DNA of 35,274 nucleotides, taken from contig CATJOM010000051.1 in NCBI GenBank assembly GCA_949741915.1, positions 1 to 35,274 of the forward strand, in the 5' to 3' direction. This document shows, in pieces, positions 14,081-24,880 of this stretch (position 1 is its first letter; every line of letters begins with the position of its first letter). Position numbers and translations under genes: made by a program. This DNA is from an uncultured Candidatus Melainabacteria bacterium. GTDB lineage: Bacteria > Cyanobacteriota > Vampirovibrionia > Gastranaerophilales > Gastranaerophilaceae. Under the pieces are notes generated by a model. The model had not been told where the DNA came from, did not search any database, and worked only from the letters and a program-made list of their open reading frames with translations.

Positions 14081-14341
14081 AACCACGCTCCACGGGGTGT
14101 TGCAAACTCTCGACCGGAAGCCTATGCCGGGTGTAGAGCCTACCGTGAGGGGCTGATGGGCAGACATTGAAAATTTGAATATTGTTGATATCTTTCTTTT
14201 AGGGCGGCGATTATGCGGTTGAACCGTGTCAGGATGGAAACATAGCAGCACTAAATTGATGTTAACGGGTGCCTTAAAGATTGAAGGAAATGTTTGAATT
14301 GTAGATTTTGTCCGTCATTTTCGAAAGGTAGTGGCGTGGTT
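14081..14341 (+). ncRNA. ffs: Signal recognition particle RNA, large type with Alu domain
   Basis: This is the RNA scaffold that binds Ffh and targets nascent membrane proteins. The 5' end AACCACGC pairs with the 3' end GCGTGGTT, closing a molecule of about 260 nt. The hallmark helix 8 is present: GTCAGG (14228-14233), a short stem capped by a GAAA tetraloop (14237-14240), then AGCAGCAC. The 5' part carries a TGTTG U-turn motif (14098-14102) expected of an Alu domain, as in the Bacillus-type RNA. The promoter is upstream. No terminator follows; the RNA runs into the exonuclease gene 28 bases later, so its 3' end is probably made by processing. Confidence 0.92.
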
Positions 14342-14368: not shown

Positions 14369-15292
14369 ATGCCAAAGAAGAGCGAAATTGAAATTGTATT
14401 GGATGTTGAAACTACAGGGCTTGACTATACAAAAGAAAAAATTATTGAGTTTGCCGGTGTTATGCTTGTTAATGGCAAAATAAAGGACAAATTTGAAACC
14501 CTGATAAACGCCAAACAACATATTAGAAAGTCTTCTCAGGCAATTCATGGTATTTCAGAAGAAATGCTTGAGGATGCCCCCACAGAGGAAGAGGCGTTCC
14601 CCAAAATTTTTGAATTTATTGGGGATTATCCTATTGTTGCACATAATGCAATTTTTGATTACAGCTTTTTGAATAGAACCTCAAAACGTTTATATGACAA
14701 GCCTTTAGAGAATCATTACATTGATACCCAGGTTATGTTTAAAGAAATTTACCCCCAGCTTGAATCGTGTGGGCTTGAGGCTTTGATGAACACTTTCAAT
14801 GTAGATTTTTCTACAAGACATCGTGCAATGGCTGATGCTGAGGGGCTTGCGCTTTGCTATCCAGCACTTAAAAAAATGTATTTTCAAAAATATGACTGGC
14901 AGTTGAGCCAAATTGACAATGCTGAGTACTTATTTGAAAGATACTTAAGATTGCAGCATACAATTGCTTCTATGCAGTCTGAAATTCAGGACTTAAGGTC
15001 TATATTTAAAGTTTATTTTGAAAAAGGCGGAGCCGATATTGTTGCAAATTCAGGGGAAGTTTTAACATATAATTCAAAAAAAACTTTTTCTTATGATTTT
15101 TTGCAGATTAAGGATGTTTTAGATGAAATTGGCGCTTTGCCAAAGGCTGTAAGGTTGAACAACGCATTTGTAGACAGGCTTGTAAATGGCGCCAGTCTGG
15201 ATATTGAAATTCGGGATAAAATTAAGGCTGCGCGGTGTGAAATTACAGAAAATAAAACTTTTAATGTAATTCGGCCAGATAAGAACAAATAA
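14369..15292 (+). CDS. DnaQ-like DEDDh 3'-5' exonuclease with a C-terminal extension
   Basis: The N-terminal 165 residues are a DEDDh exonuclease domain: Exo I LDVETTGL with Asp12 and Glu14, Exo II AHNAIFDYSFL with Asp97, and Exo III HRAMADAEG with His151 and Asp156. The domain is closest in pattern to PolC-type epsilon proofreading subunits. Residues 170-307 are an extension that begins with a helical stretch (ERYLRLQHTIASMQSEIQDL) and is not a domain I recognise; it may hold a partner or nucleic acid. The gene has AGAGGAA before its ATG. It directly follows the SRP RNA and may be read through from that promoter. Whether it is the replicative proofreader or an RNase cannot be told. Confidence 0.85.
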   Translation: MPKKSEIEIVLDVETTGLDYTKEKIIEFAGVMLVNGKIKDKFETLINAKQHIRKSSQAIHGISEEMLEDAPTEEEAFPKIFEFIGDYPIVAHNAIFDYSFLNRTSKRLYDKPLENHYIDTQVMFKEIYPQLESCGLEALMNTFNVDFSTRHRAMADAEGLALCYPALKKMYFQKYDWQLSQIDNAEYLFERYLRLQHTIASMQSEIQDLRSIFKVYFEKGGADIVANSGEVLTYNSKKTFSYDFLQIKDVLDEIGALPKAVRLNNAFVDRLVNGASLDIEIRDKIKAARCEITENKTFNVIRPDKNK

Positions 15293-15666
15293 TCTTTTTA
15301 AATTTCTGCTAGACAACCATTGTGTATCTTGGGCGTTGAATGCTGGCCTAGGGTTGAAAGGATTGTTTAGTATACAAATAATCCCTATTTCATGTAATTC
15401 AAGACCATTTAAATTTGTATTTATATACCAAAATATTTCCACTCACATCAGTTTCTGTCACTGTATTGGCATATTATTGAACCCCCCTTTTTTCTGTTGT
15501 GAATAAATGGATATTTTATATTAAGAGCCTTGTTGTTGGCCCGAACTTTAAGCTGCCTGGTTTTACCTGCTTATAAAAACATTGCAACAAGTTGATTTCG
15601 ACTCTTTAAATTAAGTTTTATTACAATTATTACTAAATATTAAGTAAAAAGTATATAAAAAGGCAA
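15293..15666. other. Non-coding stretch upstream of the GA-rich RNA
   Basis: No gene, clear repeat or terminator was found in these bases. The composition is that of ordinary AT-rich spacer, with a run of six C followed by six T at about 15482-15493. Confidence 0.4.
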
Positions 15667-15684
15667 TATTTTTTATAAAAAATA
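15667..15684. promoter_or_regulatory. Perfect 18-bp AT palindrome upstream of the GA-rich RNA
   Basis: TATTTTTTATAAAAAATA is a perfect palindrome ending four bases before a TATATA/TATAAG -10-like stretch at 15688-15695. It occupies the expected -35 to -10 spacer, so it could be an operator or bent DNA at the promoter. Confidence 0.4.
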
Positions 15685-15696
15685 CTTTATATAAGT

Positions 15697-15924
15697 ACGA
15701 GAGAGAAAACAAAACCCCGAAAAACCAAAAAGAGAGAAAACCAAAATACCAAAGAGGAGAGAGAAGAAAACCGTACACCACACAGAAAATAGCAAGAGAG
15801 AAGAATAGAGAACCGCCACAAAAAGAGAGAACAAAAGAGAGAAAACTACCTAAACCACATCACTACACCACATGAGGATACTTAAACAAAATTAAAGAGC
15901 CGGTTTAAAGGCTCTTTTTCTTTT
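15697..15924 (+). ncRNA. U-depleted GA-rich small RNA with six AGAGAGAA motifs
   Basis: From 15700 to 15845 only 4 of 146 bases are T, in an AT-rich neighbourhood, and the strand is nearly all A, G and C. AGAGAGAA occurs at 15700, 15731, 15758, 15795, 15824 and 15836, separated by A- and C-rich linkers. A CA-rich tail (about 15846-15885) leads to an intrinsic terminator at 15894-15924. One frame is open but has no start codon and would be Lys, Arg and Pro-rich, so coding is unlikely. With almost no U, the body cannot form many A-U or G-U pairs and is probably single-stranded: a repeated display of binding sites for a protein or for CU-rich RNAs. I recognise no known family. The 5' end is inferred from the -10-like box. 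Confidence 0.6.
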
Positions 15925-16510: not shown

Positions 16511-18988
16511 GTGGCTGCCAAAAAACGAGTGATAGCCTACCTTCACACCCATTGGGACAGGGAATGGTATAGAACAAAAGAAGAGTTTAATTTGAGACTT
16601 TTGGAAGTTTTTGATGAAATTTTAGAAGAGCTTCAAAGTGGTTCTATGCCTTGTTTTTATTTTGATGGACAGACGGCAGCTCTTGAAGATTATTTAAAAT
16701 TCAGGCCTGAAAATCTTAAAATTGTTACAAAACTTATCAAATCCAAAAAACTTTTTATAGGCCCATTTTATGCAAGTGCAGACAGCTTTTTGGTGAGCGG
16801 TATTTCTTTAATCAGAAATTTGAATTTTGGTATTGAATATTCTAAAAGTTTTGGTGTGACTGATTTTATAGGATATCTGCCAGATACTTTCGGGCATTCA
16901 AGAAGTATTTTTGATATACTAAAGGCTTTTAATATTGCTAATGCCCTTGCGTGGCGAGGGATTGGGCCCTTGCCCCACAATGATTTTAAAATAAATGGCA
17001 TAAATGCCACAAGGCTTGTATATGGCTATTTTATGGATGTCTTACATCCTTTAGAAAGATACAGTGCTTGTTTTGATGATTTTTGTAATTTGAAATCCTC
17101 TGCTAATGCTGATTTTACGGTGAATGAAATTATAAAAATAGTTCAATCTTTAGAGAAAATTCTGGATAAAATTGCCCAAAACTCTGATGGTGATTTGCTT
17201 TTGCCAATAGGGGCAGATCATCTTGCAGCACTAAAGGATTCCTCAAAGATTGTAAATATTGTAAACAAGTACCTTCAAAATTATGAAATAGAGCTGAAAT
17301 CTCCATTTGAATATACCCAAAATGCTGATTATTCACATCTTTCAATGCATGGCGAGCTTCTAGATAACACTGTAACCTATATTTTACCTGGTGTTTATTC
17401 TTCCAGAATACCGCAAAAGGTTGAAAATGCTAAGCTTCAGTGGGATTTATTCAGAATTGTAGAACCTTTGAATCATTTTGCTGAATATCTTGGGATTAAT
17501 AGCTCTAAATACGCTGCCAGTCTTGATTTTGCGGCAAAAGAACTCATTAAAAACCATGCCCATGATTCAATTTACGGCTGTTCGACAGATGAGGTGCACA
17601 AGTGCGTGCAAGCCAGATTTGACAAGGTAAAGGCGGTGATTTATGGGGTAAAACAAAGACTAATTCGGGATTTAATATGTAAATTTACCCAAAATGCAGA
17701 TTATACGCCTAATAAATTTTGTACCCCACCAAAAACTAACAAAAACCAGCGTGCAGAAATTTTTGCTTTCAATCTTTCAAACTTTGAATACTCGGGCCCT
17801 GTCAGTGTTATCTCGAATACAAAGATGTCAAATGCGCAATTGGTGCGCAAATTCAGGGGCTTTAGTGACGAAATCCTATACAATACAAGGAAAATCCCTG
17901 TAACAGAGCAATACCTCCCCATGTATGAATATTTGGTACAGGCAAAATGTTTGAAACCCTTTGCTTTTGCACCCATTGAATGCGTTCAAATACAATCAGA
18001 GCTTGAAATCACAGAAAATAAAATTTCAAATTCCTTGCTGGAATTGAATTTGAGACGTGAAAAAGACAGAATAACGCTAAATTTATTTGATAAAAGAGCC
18101 GGCATACAATATTTCGATGCTCTGAAAATCATTGTGTCAGAGGATTTTGGGGATAGTTACAATTCTGCTTGCCCAAAGAAACCCATTCAATACAAGCTTT
18201 TGGGAGCCAAAATTGTTGAAAAAGGCCCAATTAGAGCCGCTTTAAGGCTTTTATTTGAAAATAATTTCAAGCTCGATGTTTATCTTTCAAATTATCAGGA
18301 ATTTTTTGAATTTGAGGCAAAATTCAACAATAACAGAAAAAATCAAAAAATTCAAGCGTGCTTTAATTTGAAAAGCCCCATAGAATCTACGTTTGCAGAG
18401 GATGCATTTGGGTTTATTGAGAGAAAACACGATTATAACTGGCTTATGCGTGAGCATATGCCTGCTAAACCAAAAATAGAGGTCTTTTCCAATTCTTTCC
18501 CTATGCAAAAATGGGTAATGGCGCAGAACTTTGGCGTGGTGACCTTTGGTCTGAATGAATATGAGATTCATAAGAGTGAACTAAAAATCACCTTAATGCG
18601 CGGCACAGCGCGGATTTCAGAGCCAAAAAATTTGGCAAGATTTATTCCAGCAGGTCCTCCGATTGAAACTCCTGATTTACAATGTTTGGGTTTTCATAAG
18701 GTAAAATTTGCGTGTGTTTTAAACTCTGATATAGCTTTAATGCAACGTGTTGCAGAGACCTTTTATGCGCCAGTGGTGCCGATTTTGGGAAGATTTTTAG
18801 ACGTGCGTGAGAAAAAATTGCTAAATTTGCCCGAAAATTTGCTTTTTTATGGACTAAAAACCGCTGGTAACAAGACTTGTGGGGTTTTCTATAATACCTC
18901 ACACGTGCCGGTTATTTATAATAATGTATCGGTGGCCCCAAAAAGCATTGAATTTATTGAACTACAGTTCAATATAGAAGCAGAATAA
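16511..18988 (+). CDS. Glycoside hydrolase family 38 alpha-mannosidase
   Basis: GH38 enzymes are zinc-dependent retaining alpha-mannosidases. The 825 residues begin directly with the catalytic domain: HTHWDREW (12-19) supplies zinc ligands, and GYLPDTFGH (121-129) holds the expected nucleophile Asp125. A later AHDSIYGCSTDEVH segment supplies the last ligand. The middle helical and C-terminal beta-sandwich domains are present, and length is normal for the bacterial MngB-like branch. There is no signal peptide, so it acts in the cytoplasm, probably on imported mannosides or glycan breakdown products. The start is GTG with CGGAG upstream. No sugar transporter or other glycosidase is adjacent. 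It is convergent with the VTT gene, leaving a gap of one base. Confidence 0.93.
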   Translation: MAAKKRVIAYLHTHWDREWYRTKEEFNLRLLEVFDEILEELQSGSMPCFYFDGQTAALEDYLKFRPENLKIVTKLIKSKKLFIGPFYASADSFLVSGISLIRNLNFGIEYSKSFGVTDFIGYLPDTFGHSRSIFDILKAFNIANALAWRGIGPLPHNDFKINGINATRLVYGYFMDVLHPLERYSACFDDFCNLKSSANADFTVNEIIKIVQSLEKILDKIAQNSDGDLLLPIGADHLAALKDSSKIVNIVNKYLQNYEIELKSPFEYTQNADYSHLSMHGELLDNTVTYILPGVYSSRIPQKVENAKLQWDLFRIVEPLNHFAEYLGINSSKYAASLDFAAKELIKNHAHDSIYGCSTDEVHKCVQARFDKVKAVIYGVKQRLIRDLICKFTQNADYTPNKFCTPPKTNKNQRAEIFAFNLSNFEYSGPVSVISNTKMSNAQLVRKFRGFSDEILYNTRKIPVTEQYLPMYEYLVQAKCLKPFAFAPIECVQIQSELEITENKISNSLLELNLRREKDRITLNLFDKRAGIQYFDALKIIVSEDFGDSYNSACPKKPIQYKLLGAKIVEKGPIRAALRLLFENNFKLDVYLSNYQEFFEFEAKFNNNRKNQKIQACFNLKSPIESTFAEDAFGFIERKHDYNWLMREHMPAKPKIEVFSNSFPMQKWVMAQNFGVVTFGLNEYEIHKSELKITLMRGTARISEPKNLARFIPAGPPIETPDLQCLGFHKVKFACVLNSDIALMQRVAETFYAPVVPILGRFLDVREKKLLNLPENLLFYGLKTAGNKTCGVFYNTSHVPVIYNNVSVAPKSIEFIELQFNIEAE

Positions 18989-24689: not shown

Positions 24690-24711
24690 CCCCGGGAAGA
24701 ATTTTCCGGGG
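24690..24711 (+). terminator. GC-rich hairpin, probable fabI terminator
   Basis: CCCCGGGAA and TTTCCGGGG form a 9-bp stem (one G-U) around GAAT, 89 bases after the fabI stop. The following TAATTTCTCTCTT is T-rich but not a clean run, so termination may be partial. Confidence 0.6.
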
Positions 24712-24762
24712 TAATTTCTCTCTTAATTCTCTGATTTTTTGCGTTAGTTTGTTAAAGTAAAA

Positions 24763-24880
24763 GTAAGTAGTAGGTAAGTAGTTTTGGGGTTTAAAAATTT
24801 AGTCAGTAATTCCCGGTTTTATATAACAATCCTGGGGAAAGATGTTGAGCCAAACCGGGGATTTATTTTATTTTTTATTT
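24763..24880 (+). other. Candidate structured RNA or second terminator between fabI and the LOG gene
   Basis: AATTCCCGGTTT (24808-24819) and AAACCGGGGATT (24852-24863) pair over 12 bp with one U-G that is a mismatch on the other strand. A T-rich tail follows, so the structure belongs to plus-strand RNA. The 32-base loop is large for a terminator. Upstream, GTAAGTAGT is directly repeated at 24763 and 24774. No gene lies here (24601-24946). It is either a long-loop terminator or the end of a small RNA. Confidence 0.4.

Follow-up and report, generated by a model that had tools for sequence, protein, structure and literature searches.

A conserved family of U-poor, multi-motif RNAs in Gastranaerophilales, most likely of a decoy type, on a promoter that also precedes protein genes

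Since T makes up a fraction of 0.33 of the window, by which we mean the whole stretch of 35,274 nucleotides analysed here, a segment with only 4 T in 146 bases (15697-15842) raises the question of what kind of sequence this is and what it might do. The runner-up among the window's 146-base stretches has 21 T, and 85 of the 146 bases of the segment are A. The host genome (G000, 2.45 Mb, 98% complete) belongs to the Gastranaerophilales, and in a ranking of T-poor segments over the 1.55 Mb (63%) of it that was examined the segment came second; the single stronger one was about 3 kb long, and the remaining ones were, by inspection only, coding-like in appearance. In the initial annotation it was proposed that a U-depleted RNA maintained by selection starts here, that it carries six copies of AGAGAGAA and its own terminator, and that it serves as a single-stranded sponge or decoy for a regulatory protein or for CU-rich RNAs. 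A recount gave exactly the same number of T and the same six positions.

The RNA body, about 197 nt long, spans 15697-15893 on the plus strand. Within it, copies of AGAGAGAA lie at 15700-15707, 15731-15738, 15758-15765, 15795-15802, 15824-15831 and 15836-15843, with variable spacing; the only further copy within the window is found at 24716 on the minus strand, and the whole genome holds 81 copies on both strands, six of them at this locus. In dinucleotide shuffles of 15697-15893 the mean was 0.45 copies, and six were reached in none of 5000. Several features lie beyond what had been noted before, namely a second motif, ACCAC (15777-15781, 15854-15858 and 15867-15871), a GAGGA module towards the 3' end, a dedicated promoter and a regulon. 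Single-strandedness, which had also been proposed, agrees with the folding predictions, as the body has a predicted minimum free energy of -1.8 kcal/mol compared with about -10.5 kcal/mol for shuffles of equal composition.

The large SRP RNA (14083-14339), the sole Rfam match in the window, and an RNase_T exonuclease gene (14369-15292) lie upstream, while a GH38-type gene (16511-18988) follows; the RNA itself had no Rfam match above the gathering threshold. The claim that no gene is located upstream therefore needs qualification, as the exonuclease gene is on the same strand and its 3' end is 405 bases away; what stands is that a conserved promoter-like element, oriented towards the plus strand, separates it from the RNA. 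This element comprises an upstream part, GTATATAAAAAGGCAATATTTTTT (15651-15674, including GGCAAT at 15662-15667), and a core box, ACTTTATATAAGTAC (15684-15698), which includes a -10-like TATATA at 15688-15693, 20 nt from the GGCAAT, and which was also recovered by exact-pattern search. The GTATATAAAAAGGCAATATTTTTT element varies hardly at all when the host genome is compared with its congener and with four loci from a different genus, and a related upstream element also precedes protein genes of the family. From this arrangement transcription would be expected to start at about 15697-15700. In most members, coding or noncoding, ACGAGAGA or a close variant is found 3' of the promoter.

The RNA has two copies of GAGGA, one of which, towards its other end (15874-15878), resembles a Shine-Dalgarno sequence, is conserved in the congener and has no gene after it. 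It is followed after 20 nt by an intrinsic terminator (15894-15924), made up of an 8-pair stem (15894-15917) and the T tract behind it, so that the proposed plus-strand terminator is indeed present; judged by sequence it is bidirectional, and relatives carry equivalents. In 36 of 38 terminator-bearing noncoding RNAs the distance from GAGGA to the stem is 18-30 nt. It looks as though the gene behind a ribosome-binding site had given way to a terminator.

In the congener (G001) the homologous exonuclease gene is likewise followed by the same RNA (L007). The two loci are nearly identical from about -50 to +20, and the 3' module, AAACCACAT.ACTAC..CAC..GAGGATACTTA, is conserved; the terminator is equivalent with a changed stem, and the middle has diverged with AGAGAGAA copies retained. 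When a three-copy motif pattern was searched, such RNAs were found in two other genera of the family, in one of which the promoter is in common with that of the G000 RNA. The congener thus keeps the RNA in the same position, other relatives have it at other places, and the conserved promoter, terminator and retained motifs bear out the proposed selection on a U-depleted RNA. The matches of the first DNA search in G033 and G011 looked like a coding region and plain terminators and were discarded as relatives. A model of promoter and start, R1, matched in 168 of the 191 genomes of the family; since among the matches listed from an order-wide sample only four, all marginal, fell outside it, the RNA and promoter system looks restricted to the family f1. 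Named records bearing the promoter are mostly Candidatus Gastranaerophilales. A phage origin was also considered and set aside, the promoter and start pattern having no exact match among viral contigs.

What else the promoter drives was examined with the exact pattern TTTATATAAGTACRAGAGA, which gave at least 116 sites in at least 115 loci, two of them, labelled Sulfurospirillum and Clostridiaceae, looking like chance matches. Among the exact sites listed, a short ORF lies behind 71 and is absent behind 45. The ORFs encode mainly a 62-aa ribbon-helix-helix (RHH) protein (PF01402), a candidate DNA-binding member of the regulon; a second group encodes a protein of 57-67 aa ending in NFIA, and the rest assorted coiled-coil or unknown proteins. 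The NFIA protein (for example L083 795-968 and L145 4869-5045) is conserved and among the commonest genes on the promoter; the members scanned had no Pfam or NCBIfam match, and structure prediction for a 58-aa form gave a poor model (pLDDT 64). Most regulon proteins belong to no recognisable family. Where no ORF follows, the site mostly belongs to a noncoding RNA of one of two classes. Class A, to which the G000 RNA belongs, has 5-20% T, AGAGAGAA, ACCAC, GAGGA and a terminator, and in one genus occurs in several copies per genome, as in G144 with four. Class B also carries a terminator and is marked by a GGAAUG...CAUUCC hairpin and by a 3' half rich in CU/AC (ACUUACUUCAC...), and one locus (L224) mixes features of both classes. 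The RHH coding sequence of G057 has a terminator-bearing GA/ACCAC stretch on its 3' side, which ties an RNA of class A type to the RHH gene. Over dinucleotide shuffles, class A RNAs are enriched in AGAGAGAA (z = 22.9), ACCAC (19.1; 75 observed, 13.8 in shuffles) and GAGGA (12.4), z-scores that overstate the evidence because the sampled relatives are related sequences and not independent. Folding was weaker than in composition-matched shuffles in 22 of 23 bodies. A search of nine related promoter loci against Rfam gave no credible match.

The leaders of the co-promoted mRNAs are short and U-poor and use the same words, with ACGAGAGA at the start, then AGAGAG, ACCAC, and GAGGA as the ribosome site; many RHH leaders read ACCAC-AGGAGGA-AUG. 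In the two commonest mRNA groups, RHH and NFIA, the T fraction of the leader is 0.11 and 0.16, compared with 0.33 in general. Since the sampling pattern ends in AGAGA and biases the first few bases, these were left out of the word counts; past the first 10 nt, 59% of the RHH group and 92% of the NFIA group carry AGAGAG in their leaders, as against 2.2% of 507 general leaders. ACCAC is present in 45% of RHH leaders and in 1.6% of leaders in general. The RNA thus has the recognition words of the co-promoted leaders and no reading frame. Such sharing could also come from a common demand for unstructured purine-rich leaders and not from one binding factor.

Our preferred reading, which from sequence evidence we put at slightly less than an even chance, is that the locus is a gene for a small noncoding RNA, equipped with a promoter and a terminator of its own, and that its product acts as a leader-mimic decoy, or sponge. 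One transcription system would switch on both the RNA and a set of mRNAs, whose products are the RHH regulator and further proteins that are small or unusual. A sequence-specific factor, most likely a protein, would read AGAGAG where it overlaps or adjoins the ribosome-binding site of the U-poor leaders, and ACCAC beside GAGGA would probably be recognised by it too. By presenting many single-stranded copies of the leader words with no gene behind them, the RNA would titrate this factor and so alter the translation or stability of the leader-bearing mRNAs, which would be de-repressed if the factor is a repressor. The sponge or decoy idea of the initial annotation is in this respect strengthened by the vocabulary in common with the mRNA leaders, while its CU-rich RNA partner has found little support. 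A wider proposal, of a family-wide RNA-based control made up of a dedicated promoter class, an RNA-binding factor reading AGAGAG/ACCAC, class A and B decoys and a regulon of unusual proteins, is more doubtful, and we hold it as a tentative possibility.

RNAs that titrate proteins are known mainly through CsrA and Hfq, and the distal face of Bacillus subtilis Hfq has a preference for AG repeats. The Hfq profile (PF17209) gave no match in any of the 191 family genomes, a profile that may miss Hfq of the cyanobacterial type, as the positive control genomes that it matched included no cyanobacteria; the best match in G000 had an E-value of 0.19 and a stop inside. CsrA (PF02599) was not detected in G000 or G001 and was present in 30 of the 59 genomes searched, and the RRM profile (PF00076) did not detect a protein in G000; all three negatives for G000 apply to the sensitivity of these searches. 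KH profiles for KhpA/KhpB gave weak, sub-threshold matches in G000 to frames of 519 and 269 aa, which exceed the size of a KhpA and resemble KH proteins of other kinds. Because of the AG-repeat preference of Bacillus subtilis Hfq a diverged Hfq was kept as a lead; the partner could be such an Hfq, a KH protein or another protein.

CsrB/CsrC and RsmX/Y/Z are described as mimics of their target mRNAs, their GGA motifs imitating the Shine-Dalgarno element (PMC9037510). Like CsrB/RsmZ, the RNA is small and noncoding, reiterates short motifs that are found again close to the ribosome-binding site in the leaders of the putative target mRNAs, and has several copies per genome. In CsrB/RsmZ, however, it is GGA that is reiterated, typically in exposed hairpin loops, whereas here it is AGAGAGAA together with ACCAC, in an RNA predicted to be essentially unfolded, and CsrA is found in about half of the relatives searched and not in G000; the RNA thus departs from that group in motif, structure and CsrA, and it has no Rfam match. 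CrcZ, rich in A and backed by redundant homologues, is a decoy for Hfq (PMC8395346). With CrcZ/CrcY, the Hfq/Crc decoys of Pseudomonas, the RNA has in common its A-richness, the logic of many sites and redundant copies. It differs from CrcZ, which is about 407 nt long and whose A-rich motifs are bound by Hfq's distal face, in its AG repeats, its length of about 70-200 nt and its promoter; the RNA is A-rich and predicted to be unstructured, but its conserved words are AGAGAGAA, ACCAC and GAGGA, and the Hfq profile, with its possible blindness to the cyanobacterial type, detected no partner. We place the RNA in a family of its own within the known kind of decoy RNA.

Several other explanations of the locus have to be weighed against a leader-mimic decoy. 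The absence of T removes stop codons and leaves frames open by composition, and minus-strand frames of 44-56 aa do run through the stretch, so that a charged peptide from the U-poor strand or a hydrophobic one from the opposite strand might be imagined. The plus strand, which the conserved promoter drives, has no ORF of at least 20 aa, and 1361 of 1768 gap lengths among relatives are not multiples of 3; the stretch is by these observations very probably noncoding, and a translated product is extremely improbable. A DNA-level role, or one in the fate of the transcript, would make the promoter box and the initial ACGAGAGA a site for a regulator or RNA polymerase and the purine body a matter of stability, RNase handling or sorting. 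The recurrence of ACGAGAGA behind the promoter in coding and noncoding members, and a candidate DNA binder, the RHH protein, within the regulon would suit this; the reading is nevertheless unlikely, as copies of AGAGAGAA recur, unevenly spaced, far downstream of the promoter in noncoding RNAs that have a terminator at their end.

The RNA resembles an RHH leader as far as the start codon, and its 3' GAGGA is a Shine-Dalgarno look-alike at a nearly fixed place, which suggests that it might be a leader that has lost its frame, in which GAGGA and the purine repeats bind the 30S subunit, or else an untranslated remnant that a strong promoter expresses. A remnant would be expected to lose the AGAGAGAA reiteration and the single-strandedness, yet both persist across several genera and in more than one copy per genome, and the titration of ribosomes by one small RNA seems unlikely, so we give this explanation a low probability. 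Base pairing, in which the AGAGAGAA repeats would pair with CU-rich stretches and the RNA would either sponge a CU-rich small RNA or target CU-rich mRNA sites, is in our judgement just as improbable. The repeats are predicted to be single-stranded and exposed, and like the sponges that pair with small RNAs the RNA would have repeated sites on offer; moreover, in G050 (L236 115-190, G050:C2) a promoter-model match precedes a short RNA that ends in a terminator and whose GCUCUCUCUUCUU complements AGAGAGA, which makes it a possible antisense partner in G050. Apart from this one candidate no conserved CU-rich partner was found, neither as a terminator-linked RNA in the 63% of G000 examined nor as a second such RNA when further promoter sites across the family were sampled; CTCTCT is found in 3 of 999 G000 gene leaders, and pairing leaves both the ACCAC motif and the GAGGA module unexplained.

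For the leader-mimic decoy itself, the main weakness lies in the host genome, whose regulon seems to be small, with leaders poorer in the motif than those of other genera. In G000, R1 scored 65 bits at the RNA and 27 bits at the RHH gene, and weaker sites lie before genes for unknown proteins and a class B RNA. AGAGAG occurs in 1.4% of 999 G000 gene leaders, including those of two weakly predicted regulon genes, and the RHH leader has AGAGAA, with neither AGAGAG nor ACCAC. Five weak candidates of the promoter class, encoding 263-1075 aa (L272 3195-3986, L337 17345-19096, L325 16613-19204, L348 362-3589 and L316 11109-12710), gave no convincing family in Pfam. The class B RNA (L333 14337-14403, minus strand, and following bases; G000:C92) has a weak promoter match, a CACUUCACACACGAGGAAU...AUUCC hairpin and a terminator, and with it G000 seems to hold both classes.

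Other noncoding sequences were seen in the same genome. At L309, about 850-1010 (G000:C95), ACCAC, AGAGAGAGGAA and AGAGAGAA are followed by a terminator-like hairpin, with no clear promoter match. Within the window, an intergenic gap at 24690-24870 on the minus strand holds a probable second noncoding RNA, in which ACUUAC-type repeats (ACTACTTACCTACTACTTACTTTTACTTTAAC) and AGAGAATTAAGAGAGAAA are accompanied by a strong GC-rich terminator; it resembles the 3' half of class B, and its promoter has diverged. An export-gate gene of the FHIPEP (FlhA/SctV) family, of a second type (G000:C88:7525-9501), is present in nearly every genome searched, also in genomes that have neither CsrA nor the higher-scoring FHIPEP copy, which suggests an order-wide non-flagellar export system. 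Given this distribution and the many regulon proteins of no known family, one may guess that the regulon serves type III-like export. A literature search found no relevant paper on small RNAs or type III secretion in the Gastranaerophilales, nor anything describing such an RNA in this lineage.

Taken on sequence grounds, the RNA is one of a conserved family of multi-motif RNAs that had not been described before and is most likely of the decoy type. An unfolded RNA of this kind would be expected to escape RNA discovery pipelines that rely on structure. If the interpretation is true, a decoy-like family in a lineage in which neither a CsrA nor an Hfq partner was detected in G000 would point to a new RNA-binding regulator with specificity for AG repeats, and the RNA offers a concrete bait with which the binding factor could be fished out. 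The promoter and leader signature, moreover, groups many unannotated proteins of the Gastranaerophilales, which are common gut bacteria, into one candidate regulon.
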